Origin: Pseudomonadales bacterium
GTDB lineage: Bacteria > Pseudomonadota > Gammaproteobacteria > Pseudomonadales > UBA7434
Direction of reading: 5' to 3'
Length of the DNA: 51,119 nt
NCBI GenBank assembly: GCA_013043705.1
Contig: JABDNS010000063.1
Span: 1-51,119 of the forward strand
The notes under the pieces were generated by a model. The model did not search any database, was not told where the DNA came from, and worked only from the letters and a program-made list of their open reading frames with translations. Shown here in pieces: positions 6,989-45,462 of this stretch (its first letter is position 1; each line of letters starts with the position of its first letter). The translations under genes and the position numbers were made by a program.

Positions 6989-8416
6989 TCAGCCGCGCGA
7001 TTTACGCTGCACATAGCGCGCTACTAGTTTGTCGAGCAGGCCTTCACCGCCCGCGCCAGGCCCGGCTGCCGCAATGTCCATTTCTCCACCACCCGCACGG
7101 TACTGCTCAGAGTACATCTCAAGTACTTTTTTCTTCACCATACCGCGCAACGGAACGTGCGCCATCATCCCGTAGGTAGCTGCGCCACCACTATTGGCCA
7201 GTTCAGGATTTTGTTTCACGGTGGCAACAGCCGCTCGAAGGTCATGCAAATAATTATCCACCACCTGTAAATGCTGCGCCGTTACCATGGCGTGTAACCC
7301 GGGCGGGTGCTGGTTGCGATTGACTTGCCAACCGCTGGCATCCATTTGATCGCCCACTGCGTAGATGTTTACATCGGGATCGATAGAACGATAAGAAAAC
7401 AGTGGTCCTTGCGGTGCGCCGATAATCTGTAACTCTGGAATGCTTCCTATTCCAGCCTTTAACTGATTAACCGCATCGAGGGTCTTCACTGCTAAGCTGC
7501 GGTAGCCTTGCTTGCCAAAATACCGGGTGATCCCCCAGGCCGCAGCATAGGCGCCACCGGGGCGGGTTCCCAACAATGCCGATGATGCAAAAATACCGCC
7601 AGGCCAGTCTTCATATACGAACATCTGGTAGCGCAGGTAATCGAGATTGCGGTAAGTAATAGTTGACGCACCCTTGGCCGCGTAGCCGTACTTGTGAATA
7701 TCAGCGGATATTGAGGTAACACCGGGAACGCGGTAGTCCCAACGCGGTAAAGACTCGCCGTTCATTTCCATAAAAGGAAGAATGAAGCCGCCCACGCAAG
7801 CATCCACGTGCAGGGGAATTTTTTTCTGTTGTGCGATGGCACCCATTTCTTCGATTGGGTCAATAATGCCGTGCGGATATTCTGGGGCACTGCCAAGAAT
7901 CATCACGGTATTGCGGTTAACCATTTTTTTTAGTTTTTTTAAGTCTGGCTTGAAATCTTTGTTTAATGGAACCAGTCGAATCCGCACATTAAAATATTCC
8001 GCGGCTTTAAACCAGGCCACATGCGCGGTGGTTGGGATAACCATTTCGGGCTTCTTAACCCGTCGTTCAGCTTTTGCCATGTCGCGATATGTCTTCACTG
8101 CCATCAGGCAGCTTTCAGTACCGCCTGACGTTATGACACCGCAGACCTCATCTGTGCCATTGAGAATATCGGCCGTAGCACTGATGACTTCGGTTTCCAT
8201 TTTCTTCAGGCTTTTAAACGCACCGGGGTTTAGACCGTTTTCACAAGCATATCGATGATAGGCTTCTTTGATAAACGCCGAGTGCTCTTCATCCAGATAG
8301 TAGACAAGGCTCCAGACACGCCCCTCTTTATACTGCGGATCGCAGGTCTTAAATGCTTCCAGTTGGGCGAAAATCTCACTACTTTCGCAGCCTTTTTCTG
8401 GCATGGGTTTGTGCAT
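6989..8416 (-). CDS. PLP-dependent lyase/decarboxylase resembling sphingosine-1-phosphate lyase
   Basis: Fold-type I PLP enzyme of the group II decarboxylase/S1P-lyase family, 475 residues. Numbering here is from the ATG at 8416. GGTES (about 98-102) should hold the phosphate, HVDACVGGF carries the cofactor-binding Asp (about 205), and SADIHKYGYAAKG contains the Schiff-base lysine at about 242. The ADIHKYGYAxKG pattern is closer to S1P lyases than to glutamate decarboxylase. The N-terminus has no membrane anchor, unlike eukaryotic S1P lyases. A TTG at 8440 overlapping the upstream stop would add eight residues, but GGGAGAG lies 6 bases before the ATG. The substrate (phosphorylated sphingoid base or an amino acid) is unknown. 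The gene sits between a DUF819 gene and an NTF2-like gene. Confidence 0.85.
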   Translation of the reverse strand: MHKPMPEKGCESSEIFAQLEAFKTCDPQYKEGRVWSLVYYLDEEHSAFIKEAYHRYACENGLNPGAFKSLKKMETEVISATADILNGTDEVCGVITSGGTESCLMAVKTYRDMAKAERRVKKPEMVIPTTAHVAWFKAAEYFNVRIRLVPLNKDFKPDLKKLKKMVNRNTVMILGSAPEYPHGIIDPIEEMGAIAQQKKIPLHVDACVGGFILPFMEMNGESLPRWDYRVPGVTSISADIHKYGYAAKGASTITYRNLDYLRYQMFVYEDWPGGIFASSALLGTRPGGAYAAAWGITRYFGKQGYRSLAVKTLDAVNQLKAGIGSIPELQIIGAPQGPLFSYRSIDPDVNIYAVGDQMDASGWQVNRNQHPPGLHAMVTAQHLQVVDNYLHDLRAAVATVKQNPELANSGGAATYGMMAHVPLRGMVKKKVLEMYSEQYRAGGGEMDIAAAGPGAGGEGLLDKLVARYVQRKSRG

Positions 8417-8436
8417 GGTTGGCTCTCCCGGAAACC

Positions 8437-9609
8437 TCAAAGACTTTGCAAAAACAGGCCCAGGCTAATGCCTAAATAATTGCCCAGCGCGTAGCCAATA
8501 ATACCCGTTGTCATTCCCGACAGTATCGTAGTCGGGTTGCCCAATGCGCGGGCCATCATGGGAACGAACGGCGGGCTACACACAGCCGCTACCGAGGTCA
8601 CCATGAATGTGTCACTATCTATTCCAAAAATCCGGCACAGCAGGCCATGTAGAAAAAGGCTGCCTGCCACGGTACCAAATAGAAAAATCGCAACGTCGAT
8701 ATCCACAGCTGCCAGCTTTTCAAAACTCGCCATTGAAGCTACAACAAAGCAGAATACATAAATAAGGTACATGCCGAGCTTGTACGAAAACATCAGGCGC
8801 CTCACGCCAGGCAACAACGACAAGCCAATGCCCAGCGTGGTCAGTGCCACTATCATTACTGCTGCGCTCGCGCCTGTAGCAAAAAAATGTGTATAGCCCT
8901 GCGATACAGCCCAGGCCAATGCGACAACGACAATTGCAAGCGCAATTGGTTTGCACAGCTGCGGCAGGTTTTGCCGCCGAAGCAATGAAGAGTAATCGTC
9001 ACTTTCAAACCTCTCTGCAGCGGCGTTAATATCTTGCGCAGCGTTCGGGACAGAATTCGAGGCAGGCAATACGGCACGAAAAAATGATACGCCCAGCGTT
9101 AGCATCAGCAGGATATAGGCGGATCCGATCAGTGTATCGAGCGAGTGAAATACAATGTATTCACTGTGCGGAATATTCAGGCCAGCCTTGATGGCCGCAA
9201 GATTGGGCGTGCCGCCAGTGTACACGCCAACCGACATGGCCGCGTAGTGGCTGGCCGCCGCGTCTCCGGGCTCCCTTATTATGAAGAACAAGCAGCTCGC
9301 CAGGCTTACAACTGACGTTGTGGCAAGCACCATCGATAGCAGGGCTTTGCCGGCAACGCTACGCCACAGCCGAACATCGAGGGTGAACAGCAGCAGGGGC
9401 ATAGCCAACGCAATAGAGAGATCGGAAACCCGGGATTGTATGCTCAACAGATTCGGCGGTATCAAGCCCATATTGCCCGCCAACAAGCCCATCGTGTAAC
9501 ACAGCACAATAACGCCCAGCTTATTTGCCCACGCCTGCTGGCCAGCCAGCCACAGAATGCCAGCGGGGACCAATAGCGCTACCAGTACAAAAACAAGCTG
9601 TTGCATCAT
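8437..9609 (-). CDS. DUF819 family integral membrane protein (putative transporter)
   Basis: A 390-residue polytopic inner-membrane protein with about ten or more hydrophobic helices spread over its whole length and one polar cytoplasmic loop near residues 185-215. The signature VGVYTGGTPNLAAI lies at about residues 127-140; a small-residue-rich GGTPN element is characteristic of DUF819 (YjcL-like) proteins. The family is related to secondary transporters, but no substrate has been established. It is the first gene of a minus-strand operon with the PLP lyase, whose start region overlaps or closely follows its stop. This suggests that it imports or exports the lyase's substrate or product. Two ATG codons in tandem occupy the start, at 9609 and 9606. 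Confidence 0.85.
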   Translation of the reverse strand: MMQQLVFVLVALLVPAGILWLAGQQAWANKLGVIVLCYTMGLLAGNMGLIPPNLLSIQSRVSDLSIALAMPLLLFTLDVRLWRSVAGKALLSMVLATTSVVSLASCLFFIIREPGDAAASHYAAMSVGVYTGGTPNLAAIKAGLNIPHSEYIVFHSLDTLIGSAYILLMLTLGVSFFRAVLPASNSVPNAAQDINAAAERFESDDYSSLLRRQNLPQLCKPIALAIVVVALAWAVSQGYTHFFATGASAAVMIVALTTLGIGLSLLPGVRRLMFSYKLGMYLIYVFCFVVASMASFEKLAAVDIDVAIFLFGTVAGSLFLHGLLCRIFGIDSDTFMVTSVAAVCSPPFVPMMARALGNPTTILSGMTTGIIGYALGNYLGISLGLFLQSL

Positions 9610-9852: not shown

Positions 9853-10701
9853 ATGAAAGCATTTGCAAACAAGACGGCGGTAGTCACAGGCGCTGCAAGT
9901 GGCATCGGCCTGGAGCTGGCCAAAGTTTTTGCCGAGCAAGGTATGAACGTTGTGCTGGCAGACATAGAGCAAAACAAGCTAAGCGAAGCGGTAGAGGAAG
10001 TAGCGAAGCTGGGCGCAGAGGCGTTTGGGGTGCTAACTGATGTGGGTTCTGGTGAATCTGTAAAAGCGCTTTGCGAAAAAAGCGTCGATCGTTTTGGCAG
10101 CGTTCAGGTGTTGTGTAACAATGCAGGCGTTTACACTGGTGGCCAGCTTTGGGAACAGACCGAAGATGATTACGAGTGGCTCATAAAGGTAAACCAGTGG
10201 GGGATTATTCATGGCCTGCGACACTTCGTGCCACAGATGATCTCGCAGGGTGACGAGTGCCATATTGTAAATACCGCTTCAATGGCCGCTATGTGCACAC
10301 TGCCGTTTGCCGGTATCTATCACATGACAAAACATGCCGCGCTGGCGCTGAGTGAATGCTTGTTCCATGAGTTAGCTATATCCGCACCACAAATTAATGT
10401 GTCGTGCCTTTGCCCGGAACTGGCGAACACGGCTATTGCTAACGCGTCGCGAAACCGCCCTTCCGAATTGAATGAAGAAAACATAACCGAGATGCATAAT
10501 ATGTCGATGACGGCAATTGCCGACGCAACGGCAGGCTCACTACCACCACGGGTGCTAGCTGATCGCGTATTAGAGGCAATAAAAGACAATATTTTTTATA
10601 TCTTGCCACCTGAAGAAGATCCGTGGCGGGCTACAGCCAATGCAAGGTTGGAAGACCTGCGCCTTGTGCGCAACCCAACATTGGCCCCGCCTGCAATTTA
10701 A
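9853..10701 (+). CDS. short-chain dehydrogenase/reductase
   Basis: Classical SDR of 282 residues, an NAD(P)-dependent alcohol/ketone oxidoreductase. The cofactor motif TGAASGIG is at residues 12-19, followed by NNAG near 89, catalytic S143 in NTAS, and Y156-x3-K160. An acidic residue at the end of beta strand 2 (LADIE) favours NAD(H). The start at 9853 has GGGGAGA 12 bases upstream; another ATG at 9829 would add eight residues that do not look conserved. It opens the plus-strand lipid-type operon, 36 bases before the Baeyer-Villiger-type monooxygenase. It could oxidise a secondary alcohol to the ketone which the monooxygenase then converts to an ester. That link is an inference. Confidence 0.9.
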   Translation: MKAFANKTAVVTGAASGIGLELAKVFAEQGMNVVLADIEQNKLSEAVEEVAKLGAEAFGVLTDVGSGESVKALCEKSVDRFGSVQVLCNNAGVYTGGQLWEQTEDDYEWLIKVNQWGIIHGLRHFVPQMISQGDECHIVNTASMAAMCTLPFAGIYHMTKHAALALSECLFHELAISAPQINVSCLCPELANTAIANASRNRPSELNEENITEMHNMSMTAIADATAGSLPPRVLADRVLEAIKDNIFYILPPEEDPWRATANARLEDLRLVRNPTLAPPAI

Positions 10702-10737
10702 ATAGTAAAAAACGATTTCACTCTTAGGGATGGCACT

Positions 10738-12195
10738 ATGGCAGCTACAAGTACATTTCGTATAGCCATTATTGGCGCCGGCCCCGCGGGAATCGCGGCG
10801 GGTCGTGAACTTCTTCAAAAAGGCTTTAACGAATTTACCATTTTCGATGCGCTGGATGCGCCGGGCGGCACCTGGCGCCTGCACAGCTATCCTGGCCTGG
10901 CTTGCGATGTTTGGGCACATTCCTACACTTTTTCCTACGCGCCCAATCCTGACTGGACCGCGAGCTTCGTCGACCAACCCGAAATCCAGGCCTACCTGGC
11001 GCGCTGCGCCACGGAATTCGGGCTGGACCCGCATATCAAATTAAATACCCGGATTACCAGCGCGCGCTACCAACCGGGCGGGGCATGGCGTTTACAAACC
11101 AGTAGCGGCGACGATTACGAGTTTGATGTAGTGATCAACGCGATGGGTAACCAGCACACACCGCTATATCCCGATGTACCAGGCATGGATTCGTTCGAGG
11201 GACACAGCTGGCATGGCACCCGCTGGAATCATGATATTGACCTTGCTGGGAAACGCGTAGTTATTGTCGGCTCCGCGGCAAGTGCCGTACAAATTGTTCC
11301 AGAGGTGGCCAAGGTTGCCGGGCATCTTACCGTGCTACAGCGCTCCGCCAACTGGATTATGCCCCGCGGCAGAAAATTCTACTCGCCAAAACAAAGAGCG
11401 CGCGCGCGACGCTTTCCCTTCCTGATTGCCTTGACCCGTAAATGGCAGCAAACGGTAATGGGCCAGGTTGAGCACGCTGTGACATTAGGCCATAAGCGTA
11501 TGGACCAATTTGAAAACATGGTGCGTAAATTTATCAAACGCACCATCAGTGACCCGGCAATGCAAGAGACACTCATTCCGGATACACCTTACGGTTGTAA
11601 GCGCGGGCTGGTGTCCGATGATTTCTACCCGGCGTTAACACGAGACAATGTTGAACTGGTCGCTTCCGGCCTGCAGCGGGTTACACCGACTGGCGTGATA
11701 ACTGCAGACGGGCGCAGCATCGACGCTGACGTTATTGTTTACTGTACCGGTTATCGCATTCTGGATTTTGATCGCATTGATGTTGTTGGTGCTACGGGAA
11801 AGTCTTTAGCCGAAGTTATGGACGATGACCCAAGAGCGCACAAGGGAATCGCATTGCCTGATTTCCCCAATTACTTTTTTGCGGTTGGCCCGAATGGCCT
11901 GGTGCTCAATGTATCGTATTTTATTACCGCAGAAAAAAACGTCGAAACTATTGTGCGCTTATTGAAAGAGATGCGGGACTCAGGGAAGCGGCAAGCAAAC
12001 GTCAAGCGAGAGGTCTTCGAGCAATACAATAGTTGGATGGATGAACGCTTTGGCCGTTTTTCGTGGGGCTCGAGCGATTGCCACAGCTACTACCGAAACG
12101 CGGCTGGCCACGCGCCCTTTCTTTTCCCCGGCAATTTTAAGGAATACCGGCGCCTGCATGATGAAAGCGGCCTATTCGAGTATGAACTGGGTTAA
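10738..12195 (+). CDS. flavin-containing monooxygenase, Baeyer-Villiger type
   Basis: A 485-residue class B flavoprotein monooxygenase. It shows the FAD-binding GAGPAG at 13-18, GGTWR at about 43-47, and the Baeyer-Villiger fingerprint FxGxxxHxxxW realised as F153, G155, H159 and W163. The NADPH-binding stretch VVIVGSAASA is near 174-183. Enzymes with this fingerprint insert oxygen next to a ketone or oxidise heteroatoms, using NADPH and O2. No membrane anchor or signal is visible. A Shine-Dalgarno AGGGA precedes the ATG. It is the second gene of an operon with two SDRs, a MAPEG protein and an enoyl reductase-like protein, so a lipid, terpenoid or steroid ketone is a plausible substrate. The actual substrate is unknown. 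Confidence 0.9.
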   Translation: MAATSTFRIAIIGAGPAGIAAGRELLQKGFNEFTIFDALDAPGGTWRLHSYPGLACDVWAHSYTFSYAPNPDWTASFVDQPEIQAYLARCATEFGLDPHIKLNTRITSARYQPGGAWRLQTSSGDDYEFDVVINAMGNQHTPLYPDVPGMDSFEGHSWHGTRWNHDIDLAGKRVVIVGSAASAVQIVPEVAKVAGHLTVLQRSANWIMPRGRKFYSPKQRARARRFPFLIALTRKWQQTVMGQVEHAVTLGHKRMDQFENMVRKFIKRTISDPAMQETLIPDTPYGCKRGLVSDDFYPALTRDNVELVASGLQRVTPTGVITADGRSIDADVIVYCTGYRILDFDRIDVVGATGKSLAEVMDDDPRAHKGIALPDFPNYFFAVGPNGLVLNVSYFITAEKNVETIVRLLKEMRDSGKRQANVKREVFEQYNSWMDERFGRFSWGSSDCHSYYRNAAGHAPFLFPGNFKEYRRLHDESGLFEYELG

Positions 12196-12255
12196 ACCAC
12201 TTTATATTGAGCGCTGCATTTACAAATTAATTTAAACTTCTATCGAGGCGTTGTT

Positions 12256-12636
12256 ATGCAAATCACATTACTTTACGCAGGATTGTTATCTATTGTTTTG
12301 TTCGTGCTTAGCTATCGAATTGTGCAAATTCGGCAGCAAGGTGTGAGTTTAGGCGACGGTGGAGACCCTGCCATGCAAAGAAGAATTCGCGCGCAAGGTA
12401 ACTTCACAGAATACGTGCCGATAATACTGATAATGATTGCGTTGCTAGAGCTGAATCAACTACCAGGCTATGTTTTGCACGCACTTGGCTTAGCCCTGCT
12501 CGTGGCCCGCTGTCTACATGGTTACGCAATGTCGTTTTCTGAATCATTCTTCATTGGCAGGTTCTGGGGCACCGCAATAACTTTCTTATTGCTGGTAGTT
12601 TGTGGCATACTCTGTGTCTATACCTCAATCGTATAG
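12256..12636 (+). CDS. MAPEG family membrane protein
   Basis: A 126-residue protein with four predicted transmembrane helices (about 2-22, 54-72, 74-94 and 103-124) and the family motif RAQGNFTEYVPI at about 45-56. MAPEG proteins (membrane-associated proteins in eicosanoid and glutathione metabolism) are small trimeric enzymes, many of them glutathione transferases or peroxidases acting on lipophilic compounds at the membrane. Length is normal for the bacterial branch. It lies 60 bases after the monooxygenase gene and just before the M24 homologue, all on the plus strand. It may detoxify or conjugate a reactive lipid made in the pathway, but its activity is not shown by the sequence. Confidence 0.88.
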   Translation: MQITLLYAGLLSIVLFVLSYRIVQIRQQGVSLGDGGDPAMQRRIRAQGNFTEYVPIILIMIALLELNQLPGYVLHALGLALLVARCLHGYAMSFSESFFIGRFWGTAITFLLLVVCGILCVYTSIV

Positions 12637-12684
12637 TTAGTGCGTGTGGGTGCACCAGCTTGCATTGACTCGCCGCCAGCCACT

Positions 12685-13560
12685 ATGTTTGTCAAATCCT
12701 CTAACTTTAATGCCAAGGCACTTGCCCGTTTCAGGGATTTGCAGCGTACATCTTTTGCAATTCTGGAGGATACGGCAGCGAGCCTATCCGGCGGCGAATC
12801 GGAAATAGACGTCGCGCATGAACTGGTGAAAAAGTATCGTGCGGCCGGCGCCGGTTCGTTTTTTCACTTGCCCGTGGCACTTTTTGGTGAGCGTACCGCA
12901 CTGCCTGGCAATTGGCCTTTGCGAAAGTTTTTCCCTCGCGCCAAAAAATTGCTAAGCGGCGATAGTGTCATTCTCGACGCGGCGCCAATCTTTGATGGAT
13001 TTCTAGTAGACACGTCATACAGTTTCTGTTTTGGCGAAGACGAAGTACACCGACGTATGATGGAACACTTGTCCCAGTATCGCGCCAGTGTGCCCGCTGC
13101 CATCAATCGCGGTGATACATTTAAACAAATTGCACAGCAGGTGGAGCGGGAAATGCTGGCAGCCGGATATGAACCGGTACACCAAAAGCATCCAGGCAAC
13201 GTGCTTGGGCACCGTGCAGTTAAAACACCTAAGCTGCCCTTTCAAATGCGCCTAAAAGGCTTTGATGCAATGTCGCTAAGCTGGTTCAAGATTAAAGATC
13301 AATTAGCAACTACAGGCGTAGGCAATAGCAGCCCGCTCTGGAATACGTCGAAGTCATCGGATCATAAAGCCCATGATGGACTCTGGCTTGTTGAGCCGCA
13401 TGCAGGTTTTAAAAATGTTGGCGCGAAATGGGAAGAGATACTGGTTATTGAATGCGGCACAGCACAATGGCTAGATGATAAACCGCCACACGTTTGCCAG
13501 TGGGCGCATATCGCAGAGGGTGCCAACTACTTGCCCTGCGCAAGCGCCCACGCAATTTAA
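12685..13560 (+). CDS. M24 (Xaa-Pro peptidase/creatinase-fold) metallopeptidase homologue
   Basis: A pita-bread-fold M24 protein of about 291 residues, counted from the ATG at 12685. It lacks the N-terminal creatinase-type domain of aminopeptidase P. Metal ligands can be traced: D98 and D109 in DAAPIFDGFLVD (the canonical 11-residue spacing), H176 in LGHRAV, E237 in VEPHAG, and E256 in VIECGTA. A full dinuclear site therefore seems preserved. A GTG at 12640, 3 bases after the MAPEG stop, could add 15 residues; neither start has a good ribosome site. A peptidase homologue inside a lipid-oxidation operon is unexpected. It may act as an amidohydrolase or on a peptide-conjugated substrate, but the function is not known. 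Confidence 0.8.
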   Translation: MFVKSSNFNAKALARFRDLQRTSFAILEDTAASLSGGESEIDVAHELVKKYRAAGAGSFFHLPVALFGERTALPGNWPLRKFFPRAKKLLSGDSVILDAAPIFDGFLVDTSYSFCFGEDEVHRRMMEHLSQYRASVPAAINRGDTFKQIAQQVEREMLAAGYEPVHQKHPGNVLGHRAVKTPKLPFQMRLKGFDAMSLSWFKIKDQLATTGVGNSSPLWNTSKSSDHKAHDGLWLVEPHAGFKNVGAKWEEILVIECGTAQWLDDKPPHVCQWAHIAEGANYLPCASAHAI

Positions 13561-13635
13561 GTTTATTAACTTATTACCTGGCTAGAAAGATACAGCGGCC
13601 AATCACCTCAATCGAAATCAATTCAGGAAAATATT

Positions 13636-14811
13636 ATGCCTAGTACATCTCGCGAATTTGACGTAATTGTATATGGCGCCACTGGATTCACTGGTCGCCT
13701 GGTTGCTGAATACATCAGCCAGAAACACCCGGGTATCAAATGGGCCATGGCTGGTCGCAGCGCCGAGAAACTTGCTGAAGTGCGCGACCTCATAGCTGCA
13801 CCTGCAGATGTACCGCTAGTCGTGTCCAACAGCGCTGAAGAAGGGTCGCTTGAAGCGATGGCTGCGCGCTGCGCTTGTGTTATTACCACTGTTGGCCCCT
13901 ACCAGTTATATGGCGAAGCCCTGGTCGCTGCCTGTGCCGAGCAAGGCACCGACTATGTTGACCTATGCGGCGAGCCCGCCTGGATGCACGATATTGTTCG
14001 TAAATATAACGAACCCGCCAAGGCGTCCGGTGCACGCATCGTATTATCTTGCGGGTTTGATTCCATCCCCTTTGACCTGGGTGTTTACTTTTTACAGCAG
14101 CATGCAATTAAATCAAGCGGCGCGCCGCTAAATCGCGTGAAGGGCCGCGTTCGAAAAATGCAAGGCACCTTCTCTGGCGGTACTGCTGCGAGCTTTATGG
14201 AAACCATGAAGCGCGCCAAGGTCCAGCCCGAGGTAATGCAGTGGCTAGCCGACCCGTTTACCTTGTGCCCGGATTTTAAGGGCGCTGACCAGCCGCATGG
14301 TGCAAAGCCGCTGTATGAAGAAGATCTGGGCAGCTGGTCTGCGCCGTTTATTATGGCCACTATTAATACCAAAAACATTCACCGTTCTAATTTACTGCTG
14401 GGGCACCAATACGGTAAAGATTTTGTTTATGACGAAATGTTGCTCACCGGCCCTGGCGAGGAAGGCGAAAAAATAGCGCTTGCGGTTGCCAGCGATAAAT
14501 CGATGGCCACCAACCCGCCCAAGCCTGGTGAAGGCCCATCTAAAGAAGAACGCGAAAATGGTTTTTTCGATGTCATGTTTACCGGTGTCGATAGCAGTGG
14601 CACTCGCCTCACAGTGAGCGTTACTGGCGACAAGGATCCCGGTTACGGCTCCACATCAAAAATGATTACCGAAGCCGGTCTTTGCCTGGCCCATGACATA
14701 AGTCGTGATCAAACTGCGGGCGGTGTTTACACCAGTGCGCCGGCAATGGGTGACGCACTGATTGCAAGATTGCAGAAAAATGCGGGCTTAACATTCGAAA
14801 TAGAAGGCTGA
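13636..14811 (+). CDS. trans-acting enoyl reductase-like / saccharopine dehydrogenase-fold protein
   Basis: A 391-residue NAD(P)-binding protein. An N-terminal Rossmann motif GATGFTGRL is at 14-22, and there are conserved segments TTVGPYQLYG (near 85) and VDLCGEPAW (about 110-118). SCGFDSIPFDLGV follows near 140. This pattern matches the saccharopine-dehydrogenase-like family that includes mycobacterial trans-acting enoyl reductases, which reduce double bonds in long-chain lipid intermediates. Length is typical. It follows the M24 homologue by 75 bases and precedes an SDR by 48 bases. In this operon it is likely to reduce an unsaturated lipid, polyketide or isoprenoid-type substrate. The specific reaction is an inference from family and neighbours. 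Confidence 0.87.
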   Translation: MPSTSREFDVIVYGATGFTGRLVAEYISQKHPGIKWAMAGRSAEKLAEVRDLIAAPADVPLVVSNSAEEGSLEAMAARCACVITTVGPYQLYGEALVAACAEQGTDYVDLCGEPAWMHDIVRKYNEPAKASGARIVLSCGFDSIPFDLGVYFLQQHAIKSSGAPLNRVKGRVRKMQGTFSGGTAASFMETMKRAKVQPEVMQWLADPFTLCPDFKGADQPHGAKPLYEEDLGSWSAPFIMATINTKNIHRSNLLLGHQYGKDFVYDEMLLTGPGEEGEKIALAVASDKSMATNPPKPGEGPSKEERENGFFDVMFTGVDSSGTRLTVSVTGDKDPGYGSTSKMITEAGLCLAHDISRDQTAGGVYTSAPAMGDALIARLQKNAGLTFEIEG

Positions 14812-14859
14812 TTTTTTGCAATTAAAAATTTAATAGATGAAATATTTTGGCAGTTTTAC

Positions 14860-15744
14860 ATGAGTAGATATACCGGCAAAACAGTAGTGGTGAGTGGCGG
14901 CGCCGAGGGTATTGGTTTTTCAATCGCCAGGGCGCTGGGGCAGCAGGGCATGAACGTTGTGCTTGGCGATATTGATAGAAGCACGCTCGCGAAAGCCGAA
15001 GCGCAATTGCAGCAAGAGGGAATCGCGGTGCTCGCGTTACCGCTTGATGTAGTAGATACCAAGCAATGGCATGCGCTTGCCGAGCAGGCTATCGCCCGCT
15101 TTGGCGCAATTCATATGCTGGTAAATAACGCGGGTATTGGCTCGGGTGTCGGCAAGCTGGAAGACGCCAGCATAGACGATTGGCGCTGGGCTATTGATGT
15201 AAACATGGTTGGCGTATTAAATGGCGCGCAATGCATCGTCCCGCACATCAAGGCGCATGGCGAAGGCGGCTGGCTGCTCAACGTTGCCTCGATGGCGGGT
15301 ATGTCCGGCGTGCCTTTCGCAGGCGCTTATACTGCCACCAAAGTTGCGGTGGTGGGTATGTCTGAGGCCTGGGCGGGTGAGCTGGCCGCGGATAATATTA
15401 GGGTTTCGGTGTTGTGCCCGGCCTTCGTTAAAACCCGGATTCATCTTTCCGAAAGAAATCGTCAGCAAGCCTATAAATCGAATAACAATCGGTTCGAAAA
15501 CACCACGGCAGCTGCAAATGCGAGCGGCCCGGCTCAATTAGTTGAAGCTGGTATTCCTGCAGAGTTGGTTGGCTTGCGCGTTGTAGAGGCACTTGATGCC
15601 GGAGAATTTTATATTTTTACACACCCGAGTCATCGCAAACACATGAAGAAGCGCTTTGAAGCAATAGATAAAGCCTTCGTAAAGGCCGCATCCAGCCCAA
15701 TATTACAAGGTATAGATGACCCTGAGATTACTAATTTTGTATAA
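14860..15744 (+). CDS. short-chain dehydrogenase/reductase
   Basis: Classical SDR of 294 residues. The cofactor loop is SGGAEGIG (12-19), slightly unusual because Ser replaces the first Thr. An acidic residue follows strand 2 (LGDID), which favours NAD(H). VNNAG is near 88-92, catalytic S144 is in NVAS, and Y157-x3-K161 completes the active site. It is close in layout to the SDR at 9853 but clearly divergent in sequence, so the operon holds two separate dehydrogenase steps. It is the last enzyme gene of the lipid-type cluster. An 8-base inverted repeat lies between it and the DUF2254 gene, which may end or regulate the transcript. Confidence 0.9.
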   Translation: MSRYTGKTVVVSGGAEGIGFSIARALGQQGMNVVLGDIDRSTLAKAEAQLQQEGIAVLALPLDVVDTKQWHALAEQAIARFGAIHMLVNNAGIGSGVGKLEDASIDDWRWAIDVNMVGVLNGAQCIVPHIKAHGEGGWLLNVASMAGMSGVPFAGAYTATKVAVVGMSEAWAGELAADNIRVSVLCPAFVKTRIHLSERNRQQAYKSNNNRFENTTAAANASGPAQLVEAGIPAELVGLRVVEALDAGEFYIFTHPSHRKHMKKRFEAIDKAFVKAASSPILQGIDDPEITNFV

Positions 15745-15775
15745 TAAAAATTACCTACAAATCGCATAATACTTA

Positions 15776-15797
15776 TTCCACTATTTTTGTAGTGGAA
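15776..15797. repeat. perfect 8-6-8 inverted repeat between SDR and DUF2254 genes
   Basis: TTCCACTA, a six-base spacer of mostly T, then TAGTGGAA. It lies 31 bases after the SDR stop and 13 bases before the DUF2254 start. No T-run follows it, so it could be a weak terminator, an mRNA hairpin at the DUF2254 ribosome site, or a regulator's operator. Confidence 0.5.
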
Positions 15798-15810
15798 CAG
15801 TAAAGGGCTT

Positions 15811-17073
15811 ATGTGGAATCGATTTATATTTTTTCTCAACCGCGTAGGCGAGCGGCTTTGGGTGCGCCCACTCATTGCATGCATTCTGTCGGTTGCCGCG
15901 GCTTTCGTTGCCAAGGGCGCCGATAGCTTATCCGCCTTTAAGTATATTCCCGCTATCAACTCCGAATCGATTGAAACTTTGCTATCGATAACCGCTTCGA
16001 GCATGCTGGTAATTGCAACGTTAGCTGTTGCTTCAATGGTTTCAGCGTATGCTTCTGCAAGCAGTGGTGCAACACCCCGCTCGTTCACAGTGTTAGTCTC
16101 GGATAATATTTCCCAGAACGCTTTATCCACATTCCTGGGAACCTTTATATTTACGTTTGTTGCATTGATTGCATTAAAAAATGGATTCTATGGCAAGAAT
16201 GGTCTGTTAGCGCTGGCATCAATGACCGCTGTCATTCTCGCCTTGGTAATCATTACCTTTTTACGCTGGGTAGACTGGATCGCTAGATTGGGACGAATAG
16301 GCACGACGATAAAACAAGTTGAAGCGGTTGGTATGGATACATTTTTAAAGCGACGCCGATGCCCGCGATTGGGCGGCGCGCTTACAGAGTCTGCGTCTGG
16401 CCCTGGACAAGCAGTCTATGCCGATACGATCGGCTATGTTCAGCACATCAATGTCGAAACGTTACAGTCCCTGGCCGAAGAACATATGTTACAGATTAGT
16501 ATTTGCGCAATACCGGGTGTATTCGCGACGACAGATCGACCTATTGCGCAAGTGTGGCCAGACGATTCGAGCAAATCTCTACCCGAGTTATCTTGCGTTG
16601 CCGAAGCTTACGAGATTGGCAGCGATCGAACCTATGATGATGATCCCCGCTTTGCTTTAATAGCGCTATCAGAAATAGCCAGTAAAGCATTGTCTCCCGC
16701 AGTGAATGATCCGGGCACAGCTATTGGTATTTTTGGCTCGTTTATTAGATTGTTTTCTGCGTGGTCGAAACCATTACAGGAAGATGAGAAAGTTGAAGTG
16801 CAGTTCGACCGCGTGCATGTCCCGGCACTTTGTGCGGAAGATATGCTTGACGACGCGTTTAGCGCTACCGCCCGTGATGGTGCGAGCATTGTTGAGGTTC
16901 AAATTCGACTGCAGAAAGCCCTGAAGTCTATTGCTGCAATGCCGGATCGCGAACTAACAGAAGCCGCCAAAGAGCAATCGCGGCTCGCAGTAAAGCGCGC
17001 AAAAATGGCAATCAACTTCGAGGAAGATTTGGCATTGGTTACCGCTGCAGCAGAATGGTCTCTACAAAACTGA
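15811..17073 (+). CDS. DUF2254 family membrane protein
   Basis: A 420-residue inner-membrane protein. Four hydrophobic helices occupy about residues 18-38, 58-88, 105-125 and 135-155, and the region from about 160 onward is soluble. This is the usual layout of DUF2254 (predicted membrane protein) family members, and the length is normal. The sequence SDNISQNALSTFLGTFIF between helices 2 and 3, and the later stretch LSPAVNDPGTAIGI, are family-like. Function is unknown; the fold suggests a channel-like membrane part with a cytoplasmic domain. It follows the SDR with a palindrome in between, so it may be the last gene of the operon or separately expressed. It converges with the minus-strand SDR gene. 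Confidence 0.83.
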   Translation: MWNRFIFFLNRVGERLWVRPLIACILSVAAAFVAKGADSLSAFKYIPAINSESIETLLSITASSMLVIATLAVASMVSAYASASSGATPRSFTVLVSDNISQNALSTFLGTFIFTFVALIALKNGFYGKNGLLALASMTAVILALVIITFLRWVDWIARLGRIGTTIKQVEAVGMDTFLKRRRCPRLGGALTESASGPGQAVYADTIGYVQHINVETLQSLAEEHMLQISICAIPGVFATTDRPIAQVWPDDSSKSLPELSCVAEAYEIGSDRTYDDDPRFALIALSEIASKALSPAVNDPGTAIGIFGSFIRLFSAWSKPLQEDEKVEVQFDRVHVPALCAEDMLDDAFSATARDGASIVEVQIRLQKALKSIAAMPDRELTEAAKEQSRLAVKRAKMAINFEEDLALVTAAAEWSLQN

Positions 17074-17108
17074 CCAAGACTAATCATTGCCAGCACCGAT
17101 GGTATAGA

Positions 17109-17966
17109 TCAATCTAAATTAACAGCGCTATCCATATCTATTGACGGCTTCGCCAATGAAGACAGGTTGGCAGCACGCTGCTTGGCCATCATCGCCGTCA
17201 TTTCCGGGTGAGTTGACACCCAAAATTGGCCGCTAGCCAATTGCTCGAAGATAGTTCTCGCCGCTGCTTGGGGAGTTATGCCATTCGATTCCAATAACTC
17301 CACCATCGCCTGGTGATGCCCCGCCACTATTGGGTCGTCGTATTGTTTTAGCGTTGCAAAAATATTTGTTTTTACTGGCCCTGGCAGCACTGCCGACACC
17401 TGGACCGCCGCCGATTTCATTGCCATTTCCAAGTACAGGCACTCGGTGAAGGCAAGTACCGCGTGCTTGCTCATTACATATGACGCCTGGATCGGCGCAA
17501 TACTAATGCCCGCAATGGAAGACATATTTGCAATTACACAGCGTTTGCCGGTGTCGACCATAGCGCCCGCAAAAGCTTTAACGCCATTAACTACGCCGTG
17601 TATATTAACGCTTAAAATTTTATCCCACTGTGCGGCGGGGATTTCCCAGCTAAAGCCCAATACTTCGATGCCTGCATTGTTAACCAGCAACGTCACATCG
17701 CCAAAGTGACTGCGAGTTGTTTCAGCGAGGGCAGTCATCGATGCTGCATTAGCTACATCTGTAGGCACCGCCAGTACCTCGCAGCCCTGCTTGCCAAGCG
17801 CCGCTGCCAATTTCTGCAGCGGCTGCTCGGCAATATCTGCCAGCACCACTTTCATTCCTAGTTCGCAGGCAGCGTGGCGAGCCAGGGCCTCACCTATACC
17901 CGAGGCTGCGCCAGTGATAACAGCTACACCGTCTTGCCAACTTAAATTGCTTGCAGATACAGACAT
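17109..17966 (-). CDS. short-chain dehydrogenase/reductase
   Basis: Classical SDR of 285 residues with TGAASGIG at 18-25, LVNNAG near 94-99, catalytic S150 in NMSS, and Y163-x3-K167. The acidic VLADIA end of strand 2 favours NAD(H). It lies 57 bases downstream of a TetR-type regulator on the same strand, so the two are likely co-transcribed, with the regulator controlling itself and the SDR. The gap holds an AT-rich inverted repeat (TATAAA, two bases, TTTATA, around 17973-17986). It converges on the DUF2254 gene and is probably part of the same metabolic region. Substrate unknown. Confidence 0.9.
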   Translation of the reverse strand: MSVSASNLSWQDGVAVITGAASGIGEALARHAACELGMKVVLADIAEQPLQKLAAALGKQGCEVLAVPTDVANAASMTALAETTRSHFGDVTLLVNNAGIEVLGFSWEIPAAQWDKILSVNIHGVVNGVKAFAGAMVDTGKRCVIANMSSIAGISIAPIQASYVMSKHAVLAFTECLYLEMAMKSAAVQVSAVLPGPVKTNIFATLKQYDDPIVAGHHQAMVELLESNGITPQAAARTIFEQLASGQFWVSTHPEMTAMMAKQRAANLSSLAKPSIDMDSAVNLD

Positions 17967-18023
17967 AAAGCACCTATAAATTTTTATAAGCGAGAAAATG
18001 TAAATCGGAATAGCCCGCTAGCA

Positions 18024-18620
18024 TTAGGAAGAGTCCTTTATTAGGGAGCTAACTAAAAACACCCGCAGAAATTTTCGCAGGGCATCTTCATCAGTAAGAA
18101 ATCCTTCAGGATAAGTAATTAGCGACAAAATAACTCGCGTCACCCATTGGCTGGCAAGCTCCTGTGTAACGCCGTCACGAATTTCACCTTTCGCGATTGC
18201 CTGCTCAAACTGTGGCGCGATTATCTGCTCTGCCATGCTGTAAAAATTTGCTGGCGAAAGATTGATTCGATCGATTACTGCATCATCACTACCGCCAAAC
18301 AACAGTGCATTAATTGGCCTATTCCTGCGCCCGCGCATGATATGAAGAATACTGTCGACCAGGATATCGCCCAAATTGTCGTGGTAACGCGTTACAACTC
18401 TCATCTCCTCTTGCTGTTGCTGCGCGTCACGCAGCACAACCTTGCTGAGCAAGTCATCCCGATTGCTAACGTATCGGTACAACGTGGTACGGCCTATACC
18501 TGCAAGCTTGGCCACCTCCTCGAGGGTAGTTTTACCAATACCTTTGTCGGTATAGCAGGCAACGGCCGCATCCAGAATGCGATCGTAGGTCAGTTGCGTT
18601 TTAGTTTGCGAAGCCGGCAT
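18024..18620 (-). CDS. TetR/AcrR family transcriptional regulator
   Basis: A one-component repressor-type protein of 198 residues, counted from the ATG at 18620. An upstream in-frame codon at 18683 would add 21 residues that do not look conserved. The N-terminal helix-turn-helix is clear: TTLEEVAKLAGIGRTTLYRY at about 31-50, followed by VSNRDDLL. The C-terminal ligand-binding region is divergent, so the inducer is unknown. It is the first gene of a TetR-SDR pair adjacent to the monooxygenase operon, and may respond to a lipid or ketone used there. A CAGCGC/GCGCTG inverted pair at 18686-18707, upstream of the gene, is a possible but weak operator candidate. Confidence 0.88.
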   Translation of the reverse strand: MPASQTKTQLTYDRILDAAVACYTDKGIGKTTLEEVAKLAGIGRTTLYRYVSNRDDLLSKVVLRDAQQQQEEMRVVTRYHDNLGDILVDSILHIMRGRRNRPINALLFGGSDDAVIDRINLSPANFYSMAEQIIAPQFEQAIAKGEIRDGVTQELASQWVTRVILSLITYPEGFLTDEDALRKFLRVFLVSSLIKDSS

Positions 18621-18854: not shown

Positions 18855-19933
18855 ATGCACAGTCACAAATTCTTCCATTACCCAATCCTGCTGTGCTGTA
18901 TGGCAATCAGCAGCAGCGCAATTGCAACCAAGAATGAAGTCAAACTGGATACTAGCGATGTCCGCGCTGGCGGCACGCCAGTGGGAGACTTGATAAGGGT
19001 CCCCATCGAACGGCAGGAATATGCCGCGCTCTACAGCTGGCCTGACGACCTACTGAAATTGCAGAAAGAACCAAAGAAAAAAGGCCGGCGCTCTGCCTAT
19101 CAACCCATCACGCCAGATATCCTGGTGGAAGATAAAATTGGCTACAAATTCTAATTAGGCGGTACCAAGTTCGAGATAATCGCCCTGCCTGGTGCGGAGG
19201 GAATTAACTCTGCCAGCTTGTAGATGCCCAAAGAAAAAATCCTGTTTGCCGGCGGCGGATCAGTGGGCCCCGAAATTCCAATGTGGCCTAATCTGGGCAC
19301 TGTACGCGCAGACCGTAACAGGATTCTTACCGAGTACATCGATACGATTAATACAATGATCGAGCTCGAACCGCAATTTTTGTTACCTGGCCAGGATGAG
19401 CCAATAACTGATAAAGACCAGATCATGAAAAACCTGGTTTTATTGCGCGATGCCCCACAGTACGTGCATGACGAAATATGGAAAGGCTTGAGTGCTGGTA
19501 AAGATGTTTACGAGCTAATGCGTGAAATAAAATTACCGAAGCATTTATCGTATTTAAGTCAACAACACGGACGCGTGGAGTGGACAGTGCGTGAAACCGT
19601 GAGCCAGGCTGGCGCTTGGTCCGCCTATCGCTATATTAGAGCGAACTCTATCCTTATCGACCACATGAAATTTATCCTGGGCTGGTAAAGCTGGCAGGCG
19701 AAAAAAAGTGCTCTCGGCATTCAGAAAGCTGCTTAAAGCTGGCGAGCTGGAACAGGCTATGATGATGGCCGAAGTGGCCGTTGAAGCAAACCCTAGCAGC
19801 AAGAAAGCGCTGACGGCACAACTAGATGTGTTAAATGCGCTGCTGGCTAGGGCCAACCACCCACCATACTTTTAGCGAAATTGCCTGGCTGCAACTTCAG
19901 GTGAAAACAGTCGGTAAAAAGCTTAACGAGTAA
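18855..19933 (+). pseudogene. decayed alkyl-sulfatase-like metallo-beta-lactamase-fold gene
   Basis: Remnant of an exported SdsA1/BDS1-like alkyl sulfatase. The N-terminus at 18855 has a signal-peptide-like start (about 25 residues). In the same frame a TAA at 19152 and a TAG at 19221 interrupt the protein. The following part (19224-19680) keeps MPKEKILFAGGG, LLPGQDEPITD, QYVHDEIWKGLSAGKD and LMREIKLPKHL, which match the C-terminal half of these enzymes. Near 19680 the frame shifts to one that encodes the dimerisation-type segment LLKAGELEQAMMMAEV, and near 19866 it shifts again, ending at 19933. The HxHxDH metal-binding region is missing, and the expected GD after LF is GG. The gene is almost certainly inactive. 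Confidence 0.78.
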
Positions 19934-38336: not shown

Positions 38337-39221
38337 CTATTTTGATTGATCTACATTAGCTTGTGTTTGGAATATGCCATCTTTACCGGCAATCATTTTA
38401 GCGATCCAGACAAAGAAATTATTGTAGTGGTTGGGGAAAAAGCGCTGTATTCGGTCCATTAATTTTGCGTCCACCCCTATAAGCAAGCGCCGCTTGTTTT
38501 TTTCCACCGCCGTCAGGATTTGCCTGGCCGCTGATTCGGCCGTAGTTTTAGCAACCTTCTCGAAATCATCTCCGCGCGTCTCGATCGCTGCCTTTGCCGC
38601 GTCGTCAAGTAACTCACCCGGGCGCGTATTGCGGGCAATATTTGTTTTAACGCCCCCCGGATGCACACTGGTTGCACTAACAGTACTGTTAATAAGTTCA
38701 AATTCGTTGCGCAACGCTTCGGTTAATCCCCGAACTGCGAACTTACTACTATTGTAGGCGGATTGCTCCGCAACACCGATCAATCCAAACAAGCTGGAAA
38801 GATTGACGATATGCCCCCAGCTGGATTTTTCAAGCAGCGGCAGGAATGCTTTGCAGCCGTATAACACGCCGGAAAAGTTAACACTCATCAGCCACTCGAA
38901 CTCGTCGAGTGTGGTGTCCCGGAAAAGCCCTGAGGCGAGACCAGCACCCGCATTATTGATAACAAGATTGATTTCATCGAAATGCTTTGCAACCGATTCG
39001 GCATAAGCGAACATTGCCTCGCGGTTCGAAACATCCAGCACCCGCGTATGCAAGTTAATGCCGCTCTGGGACAATTGTTTGGCCGTTCTTTCCAGCGCAT
39101 CGGGATTAATGTCAGAAATAGCCAAGCCTGCATTGCGCTCGGCAAGCGCATACGCGAGCGCTTGTCCAATACCGCTTCCCGCACCGGTGATTACCGCGAC
39201 ACAATTTGAGAGATCCCGCAT
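38337..39221 (-). CDS. short-chain dehydrogenase/reductase
   Basis: Classical SDR of 294 residues: TGAGSGIG at 12-19, an acidic ISDIN end of strand 2 that favours NAD(H), INNAG near 88-92, catalytic S143 in NLSS, and Y156-x3-K160. The C-terminal region with RIQRFFPNHYNNFF suggests a membrane-associating tail, as seen in lipid- or sterol-acting SDRs. It lies 48 bases downstream of the TetR regulator on the same strand and is probably co-transcribed. It shares the region with a monooxygenase operon, repeating the TetR/SDR/monooxygenase pattern of the locus near 10-18 kb. Confidence 0.9.
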   Translation of the reverse strand: MRDLSNCVAVITGAGSGIGQALAYALAERNAGLAISDINPDALERTAKQLSQSGINLHTRVLDVSNREAMFAYAESVAKHFDEINLVINNAGAGLASGLFRDTTLDEFEWLMSVNFSGVLYGCKAFLPLLEKSSWGHIVNLSSLFGLIGVAEQSAYNSSKFAVRGLTEALRNEFELINSTVSATSVHPGGVKTNIARNTRPGELLDDAAKAAIETRGDDFEKVAKTTAESAARQILTAVEKNKRRLLIGVDAKLMDRIQRFFPNHYNNFFVWIAKMIAGKDGIFQTQANVDQSK

Positions 39222-39269
39222 TATCTTACCTGCTTATTGTAAATAAATTTAAATACTGCTTACGATTGA

Positions 39270-39923
39270 TCAATCATCGTCGCTTTTGCTTTGACTGGGC
39301 ACGACGGTCATGGCGTTCAACACATCATCGCTTAAACCCATTACGATACTGGCCAACCATGCCCTGAAACTGTTGTGATCCTTGTTTTCACTGTCGTTGA
39401 AACCCAATGCATCGGTAATGCCGCTACCATAGACAACCTCACCCACCAGCGCCAGCGTTATCAGTACAACCAGGCGGTTGGTATTGATTGGATCCGCATT
39501 CGCATCCACTGTGCGTCGCAGCTCTTGCGCCATTGCCAGAATGCGCTGCATGTTCGCATCCATAGAATTCTCGACACCACTCATATGCAGCCAGGCGACT
39601 AGCCTGCCTTCATCGCCAAGAAAGGCCGTATCCAGCACCGCGGTCAAGGCCAGGTGTTTTTTATCGGCGCTCGCTTCAGCCGCTGTTTTGATAGCGGCGG
39701 TGATACGTTCAGTTGCGCGCAAGCCAACCCGCTCGGCCACCGCTGCAATCAAGCCCTCGCGCGAGCCAAAATGGTGAAGGACATTGGGGTGCGCCATACC
39801 GGCCTCTTTGGCAACCGCACTAATCCTGAGACCGGCGGGGCCAACACCGGTAATCACCTTTTCTGCCGCATCCAGAATTGCCGTTCGGGCAGCCTGTTGC
39901 GATTTGTGGGTCTTCCTGGCCAT
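39270..39923 (-). CDS. TetR/AcrR family transcriptional regulator
   Basis: A 217-residue regulator with an N-terminal helix-turn-helix (RISAVAKEAGMAHPNVLHHF, about 33-52, then GSREGL). The C-terminal domain is divergent and ligand-specific. It is divergently transcribed from the PF10118/monooxygenase operon. A perfect 20-base palindrome (39980-39999) stands in the shared control region, a typical TetR operator. Autoregulation and repression of the flanking operon are likely, relieved by a pathway compound. That is an inference from arrangement. Confidence 0.9.
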   Translation of the reverse strand: MARKTHKSQQAARTAILDAAEKVITGVGPAGLRISAVAKEAGMAHPNVLHHFGSREGLIAAVAERVGLRATERITAAIKTAAEASADKKHLALTAVLDTAFLGDEGRLVAWLHMSGVENSMDANMQRILAMAQELRRTVDANADPINTNRLVVLITLALVGEVVYGSGITDALGFNDSENKDHNSFRAWLASIVMGLSDDVLNAMTVVPSQSKSDDD

Positions 39924-39941
39924 AGAAAAATGGGTCCGGAG

Positions 39942-39970
39942 TTGACAGTGTTGTTCACAGGGTATAGATT
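39942..39970 (+). promoter_or_regulatory. sigma-70-type promoter for the PF10118/monooxygenase operon
   Basis: TTGACA at 39942-39947, a 17-base spacer, and TAGATT at 39965-39970. The predicted start of transcription is near 39977, just before the palindrome, so a repressor bound there would block elongation or initiation. The -35 is consensus, the -10 is imperfect. Confidence 0.5.
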
Positions 39971-39979
39971 ATGACTTGT

Positions 39980-39999
39980 TGTTTACAGTTTTGTAAACA
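39980..39999. promoter_or_regulatory. probable TetR operator, perfect 8-4-8 palindrome
   Basis: TGTTTACA, four-base spacer GTTT, TGTAAACA. It lies between the divergent TetR and PF10118 genes, directly after the promoter. A related single half site, TGTTCACA, is at 39952-39959. The symmetry and placement are seen; binding by the adjacent TetR protein is inferred. Confidence 0.65.
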
Positions 40000-40067
40000 T
40001 AAATTTGAACAACATCGGCAACCATATAGAAATAGAACGCCTGGGCAGCCAGGCTGGAACCGCAATC

Positions 40068-40925
40068 ATGAATCGCAACAACATCGCAGAAAATCCTATT
40101 AGCCAATCAAAACTGCCTATCGAGCGTCGTCGCGTAGAGTTCACGCTGGATGATGTCACCGAAAAGTACTACTACCGCGGCAACCCGCAGGTAAGCGCCT
40201 TTTTTGCTTCGCTGTCGGTTGGTTTTCCGCCAGGTGAGGCCGAGTTTATTAAATCGGTTAAGTTGTTTGAAGATCAAATCACCGACCCCAAGCTGCGCGA
40301 GGAAGTAAAAAACTTTGCCCATCAGGAAGCTCACCATTCTTTCCAGCACAAGCTTCTAAACCAGAAGTTGAACGAACTGGGTTATCAAACAGGCGGCATC
40401 GACAATGTATTCAAGGAAAAATTAGCCAGACGCGAAAAACAATGGTCGCCACAACGCCGCCTGGCGCGGACCGTATCAGCTGAGCATATCACTGCCACAT
40501 GGGCACACTGGGCGCTGGGCAGTGAAGAAAAAATGCAGCATTTTCCAACCTCTATGCGCCACTTGTTGCAATGGCACGCTATTGAGGAAATTGAGCACAA
40601 GTCTGTAGCCTTCGACGTTTACCAGCAATGCGTTGGCGATCGTCGCCTTTTAAACTGGGTGTACAGGCACTTTCTGTACTTCGAATTTCCGCTTAGCCTG
40701 ACCCTTACCACCCGCGCGTTGCTAAAACAGGACAATTACAAACCTACGGCTGAAGATCGCCGCGTATTCAAAGATTTCCTGTTTGCGAAAAAAGACGGCA
40801 TGGTTTCCAGTTTATGGCCTCATTACCGGGCCTTTACCAAACAAGGATTCCACCCCTGGGCGCTGGATGACTCGGGCTTGGTGGATGACTGGAAAGGCAC
40901 ACTATCTCCCTACTTTGCCCACTAA
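40068..40925 (+). CDS. PF10118 'metal-dependent hydrolase' with two ExxH motifs
   Basis: A 285-residue all-helical protein of the PF10118 family (annotated as predicted metal-dependent hydrolase). Two ExxH motifs are visible: E87-A-H-H90 in AHQEAHHSFQHK and E174-I-E-H177 in AIEEIEHKSVAFDVY, with extra acids at E57 and E60. Two ExxH motifs on separate helices are the hallmark of ferritin-like di-iron carboxylate proteins, so an oxidase, oxygenase or desaturase role is possible. The ATG at 40068 matches the usual family N-terminus; a TTG at 40005 would add 21 residues and overlap the control region closely. It is followed 40 bases later by a monooxygenase gene. Confidence 0.82.
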   Translation: MNRNNIAENPISQSKLPIERRRVEFTLDDVTEKYYYRGNPQVSAFFASLSVGFPPGEAEFIKSVKLFEDQITDPKLREEVKNFAHQEAHHSFQHKLLNQKLNELGYQTGGIDNVFKEKLARREKQWSPQRRLARTVSAEHITATWAHWALGSEEKMQHFPTSMRHLLQWHAIEEIEHKSVAFDVYQQCVGDRRLLNWVYRHFLYFEFPLSLTLTTRALLKQDNYKPTAEDRRVFKDFLFAKKDGMVSSLWPHYRAFTKQGFHPWALDDSGLVDDWKGTLSPYFAH

Positions 40926-40965
40926 TAAAGCGTCGTGTAGCCATACGATTTAAGGTTTTTGCTCA

Positions 40966-42488: not shown

Positions 42489-43175
42489 TTAAGTGCGTTT
42501 TTGGCGAACAATCTGGTAGTTACGCCCCAGGTACCATACTGGCGCACTGATCATGTGAACCAGGCGGGTAAAAGGAAACACCAGAATAATACTTATGCCA
42601 AAGAACACATGTAGCTTGTAAAGAATATGCACATTAGCAATGGAAGCGGCGGCCTGCATAGGCTGGAAAGTCACGATGCTTTGCGCCCAGTTTGCCAATA
42701 ACAGCATTACCGATCCATCAAGGTGCTCGGCCGATATAAATATCGTCATCAGTCCAAGAAGCAGCTGGATTAATAAAAGTACGAGCACAGCTATATCACT
42801 AAAACTGCTCGAAGCCCTGACCCGTGGGTCGGTCAAGCGCCGATGCAGCAGCATGATCAAACCCACAAGACACAGCAGCCCAAAAAAGCCGCCGGAAATC
42901 ATCGCCAGCAATTGTTTGTTTGGCGTGCTAATCACATAGTGATAAAGCGATTCTGGCGTAAGCAAGCCAACGATGTGGCCAAACAAGATAAAAATAATCC
43001 CGATATGAAATAGATTGCTCGCAAGCACCATATTTTTGGTTCTTAACAATTGTGAGGAGCCTGCTTTCCAGGTGTACTGCTCCCTGTCGAATCGAATAAA
43101 GCAAGCCACTACGCATACTACAAGCGCGATATAAGGGTACAGCCCGAACAAAAATGTGTTCAATGAAAAATTCAT
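42489..43175 (-). CDS. narI: respiratory nitrate reductase gamma subunit
   Basis: A 228-residue, five-helix cytochrome b subunit that oxidises quinol at the membrane and passes electrons to NarH. The heme ligands align with E. coli NarI: H57 and H67 in the second helix region, H189 and H207 in the fifth. The start overlaps the narJ stop by 4 bases (ATGA), with GGGAGAG about 8 bases upstream. It is the last gene of the minus-strand nar operon and converges with the monooxygenase gene. Confidence 0.97.
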   Translation of the reverse strand: MNFSLNTFLFGLYPYIALVVCVVACFIRFDREQYTWKAGSSQLLRTKNMVLASNLFHIGIIFILFGHIVGLLTPESLYHYVISTPNKQLLAMISGGFFGLLCLVGLIMLLHRRLTDPRVRASSSFSDIAVLVLLLIQLLLGLMTIFISAEHLDGSVMLLLANWAQSIVTFQPMQAAASIANVHILYKLHVFFGISIILVFPFTRLVHMISAPVWYLGRNYQIVRQKRT

Positions 43176-43894: not shown

Positions 43895-43896
43895 AA

Positions 43897-45450: not shown

Positions 45451-45462
45451 TGATACTGTTCC

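Follow-up and report, generated by a model that had tools for sequence, protein, structure and literature searches.

Gene content and layout of the locus

The window (the whole stretch of DNA analysed, 51,119 nucleotides) is contig JABDNS010000063.1 of a Pseudomonadales bacterium (GCA_013043705.1). The locus under study comprises nine genes, labelled A to I:

9853..10701, plus strand: A, SDR-1, a classical short-chain dehydrogenase (SDR; Pfam adh_short, 3e-44)
10738..12195, plus strand: B, a class B flavin monooxygenase resembling Baeyer-Villiger monooxygenases (BVMO-like; Pfam FMO-like PF00743, E 3e-21)
12256..12636, plus strand: C, a MAPEG membrane protein (PF01124, 5e-22)
12640..13560, plus strand: D, an M24-fold protein (PF00557, 3e-13)
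13636..14811, plus strand: E, a saccharopine-dehydrogenase-like NADP-binding protein (Sacchrp_dh_NADP PF03435, 9e-12)
14860..15744, plus strand: F, SDR-2 (Pfam adh_short)
15811..17073, plus strand: G, a DUF2254 membrane protein (PF10011, 9e-89)
17109..17966, minus strand: H, SDR-3 (Pfam adh_short), convergent with the A-G run
18024..18620, minus strand: I, a TetR-family regulator (Pfam TetR_N 1.5e-11), upstream of SDR-3

All nine genes are open frames, each with an assigned Pfam family, and the folds of the encoded proteins are clear from sequence. Consecutive plus-strand genes from A, which starts at ATG 9853, to G are separated by 36, 60, 3, 75, 48 and 66 bp; SDR-3 and the TetR gene, whose minus-strand ATG lies at 18620, converge on the DUF2254 gene. 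This confirms, with exact coordinates, the layout given in the earlier note, namely seven co-directional, closely spaced genes facing a TetR-SDR pair. Scans of the stretch returned 9 terminator-like matches against 10.7 in shuffled sequence and 13 promoter-like matches against 11.8, which we do not count as an excess in either case, so transcription of A-G as one unit is possible. Thiolase, CoA ligase and serine hydrolase were not found among the nine genes, in agreement with what had been claimed for this locus, but the loci where SDR-1 stands beside the monooxygenase do carry a hydrolase.

The three SDRs match adh_short at 3e-44 to 2e-49 and have the YxxxK signature of classical SDRs (YHMTK in A; YTATK in F; YVMSK in H). 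The cofactor motif of SDR-1 is TGAASGIG, and the Asp after beta-2 suggests NAD(H) as its cofactor; its closest solved relatives are 5ig2 and the LigD/LigL-type C-alpha-dehydrogenases. SDR-2 has SGGAEGIG as its first cofactor motif, with 3ioy and C-alpha-dehydrogenases as PDB relatives.

Binning contamination of the contig was considered and is not indicated: in tetranucleotide profile, the contig outside the stretch agrees with two further contigs of the genome at 0.77-0.79, and the 0.65 obtained for the stretch falls inside the span of 0.57-0.75 seen along the contig. Elsewhere in the window, an MfnA/glutamate-decarboxylase-like PLP decarboxylase gene upstream of the run (6989-8440) was matched in none of 11 same-genus genomes (E<=1e-60), and the gene downstream of the run is only 37-53% similar in the genus, so the flanking genes gave no anchor for an insertion comparison. 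Positions 18855-19900 hold a gene remnant interrupted by stop codons; by eye, its fragments look like an MBL-fold alkyl sulfatase, and the fragment tested had no Pfam match. A second, smaller set lies at 38337-42384, with an SDR and a TetR gene on the minus strand; its plus-strand genes encode a metal-dependent hydrolase (PF10118) and a BVMO of the EthA/AlmA-like kind. This second BVMO carries BVMO1 as GGTWDLFNYPGIRSD and BVMO2 as FQGDVVHPQFWP, both strict, and is adjoined by the PF10118 gene (40005-40925). A complete respiratory nitrate reductase set (NarI, NarJ, NarH and NarG) occupies 42489-49224 on the minus strand.

The gene order as a whole is not conserved

Gene B was used to fetch 57 named loci, and a search for it across 390 genomes of the order gave 19 positives at E<=1e-120. 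The 57 other B loci come from Halieaceae, Myxococcota, Actinomycetota and further groups; none of them has C, D, E or G. When the neighbours at these loci were clustered, no gene was common to more than six loci, and several of the shared-neighbour clusters are runs common to close Haliea/Halioglobus relatives. Across 77 neighbour loci (1.26 Mb in total), C, D and G were absent. Separate searches with E, D, F, A and H covered 194 genomes of the order, with 20 neighbourhoods read: SDR-1 had no match at E<=1e-90 in the seven same-genus relatives of this search and D none at E<=1e-60 in the other 193 genomes, while orthologues of E are 55-64% identical in many genomes of the order.

Among the loci and genomes compared, the seven-gene order A-G was found nowhere else. 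The earlier note had proposed a single dedicated seven-gene pathway and had named, as the observation that would speak against it, a gene order not conserved past near relatives. This is what we found, even within the genus, and the single pathway is therefore not supported. Smaller gene partnerships do recur, and the run as a whole is a one-off patchwork of these, not a conserved new pathway.

A monooxygenase that recurs with SDR and esterase genes

B has an FMO-like fold with a two-domain match to solved BVMOs; its best matches among solved structures are OTEMO (2.5e-59), CHMO and PAMO, with steroid monooxygenase also matched. We applied the BVMO fingerprints of PMC9044951 to B and to 70 orthologue rows. 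BVMO1, [GA]GxWx4[FY]P[GM]x3D, is present in B as GGTWRLHSYPGLACD and kept in 70/70 rows, and B retains both its catalytic Asp and the KR arginine. BVMO2, FxGx3Hx3W[PD], is missed at its end, where B reads FEGHSWHGTRW-N, the final position being N in 57 and D in 8 of the 70 rows. At the second Rossmann motif, GxGxx[GA], B has GSAASA instead, as do 49/70 rows, the remaining 21 being unmatched by the search pattern used. Most orthologues of B likewise depart from both of these strict type I fingerprints, and the BVMO2 motif can be degenerate (PMC9044951). Because two strict fingerprints are lacking in B, ketone oxygenation is not assured; we regard B as a class B flavin monooxygenase that probably acts in the manner of a BVMO, without naming it an established type I BVMO.

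The nearest relatives of B are from Halieaceae (82-83% identity; 83% to Litorirhabdus singularis), whereas full-length same-genus copies are about 60-67% identical and lie in a separate part of the tree; one same-genus fragment of 234 residues reaches 71%. Recent transfer of B from Halieaceae is plausible, with tree support from SH-aLRT only and with loss in relatives as an alternative.

At three loci (L027, L028 and L062), SDR-1 copies 78-79% identical to A lie 0.05-3.5 kb from the orthologous monooxygenase, and the same loci carry esterases belonging to a single family (Abhydrolase_3, 3e-57), which share 64-100% identity with the copy at L028. In L027 and L028, a Halieaceae-type operon brings SDR-1 and the esterase together with two monooxygenase genes, one for a second BVMO and one for the B orthologue, and with a gene for a PEP-synthase-like protein (~790 residues). 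In the window's own genome, the best match to the esterase is only 32% identical. At only 3/57 loci does an SDR-1 copy (78-79%) lie within 5 kb of the B orthologue, and 14/57 have any SDR match within that distance, so B appears usually to work without the neighbours seen in the window. SDR genes also stand directly 5' of the B orthologue in the SDR-SDR-monooxygenase runs of three Actinomycetota loci (L046, L049 and L053), and Burkholderia glumae plasmids encode a monooxygenase ~38% identical to B that is fused to an alpha/beta-hydrolase. Hence the part of the earlier note that proposed alcohol-to-ketone conversion followed by oxygen insertion retains a basis in a recurring SDR/BVMO-like unit with an Abhydrolase_3 esterase, although not as one pathway of seven genes.

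An M24 protein whose relatives accompany hydrolase-SDR fusions

The partnership of an M24 protein with a hydrolase-SDR fusion and a PF10118 protein is, in our view, the most interesting finding here, and we found no description of M24 genes clustered with SDR or PF10118 genes in the limited collection of literature searched. D shows the M24 metallohydrolase fold by its Pfam match and its five putative metal ligands. In our alignment to the M24 pattern, these ligands (D, D, H, E, E) are all retained in D, in columns (ILD, VDT, GHR, VEP and WEE) that are conserved between D and its relatives. D is rare in its own order and phylum: a phylum search of 349 genomes returned five relatives at 34-39% identity. 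Dietzia, Embleya and Burkholderia carry relatives on plasmids or second replicons; these and those from three further genomes all keep the five ligands, and SPLW and GLWAVEPH are common to the relatives. The motifs defining this small M24-fold subfamily are FHxPFAWFGDRTAF, LDxAP, SPLW, GLWAVEPH, GAKFEELLV and WLDD.

In 6/6 contexts (L178, L179, L180, L182, L183 and L184, from Actinomycetota and Pseudomonadota), the next same-strand gene 3' of the M24 gene encodes a fused alpha/beta-hydrolase-SDR of ~590 residues; the M24 proteins upstream of the fusion are 33-39% identical to D. A PF10118 gene belongs to the same run as M24 in Dietzia, Embleya and G419. The resulting M24, alpha/beta-hydrolase-SDR and PF10118 cluster (L179, L180 and L182) is on plasmids in Dietzia and Embleya, and the Dietzia cluster is also annotated with a PDR/VanB oxidoreductase and a TetR gene.

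EphD, an alpha/beta-hydrolase-SDR fusion, acts in mycolic-acid metabolism in mycobacteria (PMC7998700). D is homologous to the M24 proteins encoded next to EphD-type fusions in Burkholderia, Dietzia, Embleya and the three further genomes, but the window encodes no fusion protein, and D sits with E and F instead. It is conceivable, though we consider it doubtful, that this M24 subfamily is a metal-dependent lipid or ketone enzyme, not a peptidase, which in two phyla would have alpha/beta-hydrolase-SDR fusions and PF10118 proteins as partners and which here stands beside a BVMO-SDR set.

Remaining genes of the run

SDR-2 and E are adjacent in four other genomes (G012, G054, G167 and G114), with F transcribed ahead of E each time, opposite to the order in the window, and some genomes with the pair have B at another place or lack it. 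For E, the earlier label 'trans-acting enoyl reductase-like' stems from naming by similarity: a saccharopine-dehydrogenase NADP-binding domain is all that Pfam sees, and no solved structure matched. In G185 and G086, orthologues of SDR-3 lie ~2 kb or less from other BVMO-type genes. The MAPEG gene was never near monooxygenase, SDR-2/saccharopine-dehydrogenase-like or SDR-3 loci, and a role for it in the cluster is unsupported beyond its name; DUF2254 is probably incidental, given its absence from all 77 neighbour loci. The 'double-bond reduction' and 'membrane detoxification' proposed earlier go back to family names.

A candidate route and its alternatives

From the observed gene content, recurring sub-associations and motifs, we infer a set of locally assembled, possibly co-transcribed oxidoreductase genes around an SDR-monooxygenase core, which would take a hydrophobic alcohol to a ketone and on to an ester, with the esterase encoded elsewhere in the genome or missing. 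We give this reading, including its reactions, substrate and co-transcription, about an even chance. SDR-1, with SDR-2 and/or SDR-3, would use NAD+ to oxidise a secondary hydroxyl group on a hydrophobic substrate, giving a ketone, and B would insert oxygen to yield an ester or lactone. In relatives, the Abhydrolase_3 esterase may hydrolyse the ester; here, another genome-encoded enzyme might do so, or the ester could be the end product. D would be a metal-dependent hydrolase-like protein recruited from a module in which an alpha/beta-hydrolase-SDR fusion is its partner, E and F may act as a second redox pair, and MAPEG and DUF2254 are probably passengers. This route draws on the recurrence of SDR-1, B and esterase, the Actinomycetota runs, the B. 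glumae fusion, and the BVMO1 Asp and KR arginine; assembly from modules is further suggested by the F-E adjacency in four genomes and the fusion in all six D contexts.

The known route of SDR/ADH, type I BVMO and esterase, used in subterminal alkane, cyclic ketone and progesterone degradation, shares an SDR and a class B monooxygenase with the locus, and relatives of A and B also have an esterase gene beside them. It differs in that the locus itself has no esterase and has unrelated extra genes, and in that B is off the strict fingerprints. In Thalassolituus, an alcohol-ketone-ester-hydrolysis route for long-chain alkanes is supported by proteomics (PMC6304351), and in Caenibius the ketone-to-ester step has been shown for progesterone (PMC12239570); in neither is the esterase beside the BVMO.

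Alternatively, chance might have placed unrelated genes for oxidoreductases and membrane proteins together on one strand; A-B and E-F would then each be a two-gene unit of its own, and the run would have no pathway in common. The uniqueness of the full order to this genome, the absence of C, D and G near the others in 77 loci and the occurrence of the F-E pair away from B all point that way, but seven short-gap genes share a single strand, and the families of A, D, F and H have relatives that recur with monooxygenases or hydrolases, so we regard this as rather unlikely. It is far less probable that the locus serves envelope-lipid modification, in which E would be the trans-acting enoyl reductase while a membrane lipid is tailored by the SDRs and B, as with mycobacterial mymA/ephD. 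EphD-like architecture does accompany D relatives, yet acyltransferase, polyketide synthase, acyl carrier protein and CoA ligase are all missing from the locus, and E has a Rossmann-domain match only. The mymA locus of Mycobacterium tuberculosis contains dehydrogenase genes too, together with lipR, adhD, fadD13 and an AraC regulator; the families of these four are absent among the nine genes, and the locus is not a mymA-type operon. What it shares with mymA, an operon required for normal envelope structure, is a BVMO-like gene within a run (PMC9044951).

Xenobiotic detoxification, with S- or N-oxidation by an EthA-/FMO-like B and MAPEG as a glutathione transferase, seems similarly improbable. 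It would accommodate the departure of B from the strict BVMO fingerprint and the position of MAPEG next to B; however, solved structures place B nearer to ketone-oxidising BVMOs than to FMOs, B keeps the BVMO1 Asp and KR arginine, and MAPEG is not a conserved neighbour of B.

Overall, one new seven-gene pathway gives way to smaller, testable units: the SDR-1/monooxygenase/esterase set seen in Halieaceae and Spongiibacteraceae, and the SDR-2/saccharopine-dehydrogenase-like pair. The partnership of M24 with hydrolase-SDR fusions and PF10118 could, in addition, point to a function other than peptide cleavage for an M24 subfamily that is labelled peptidase in automatic annotation.
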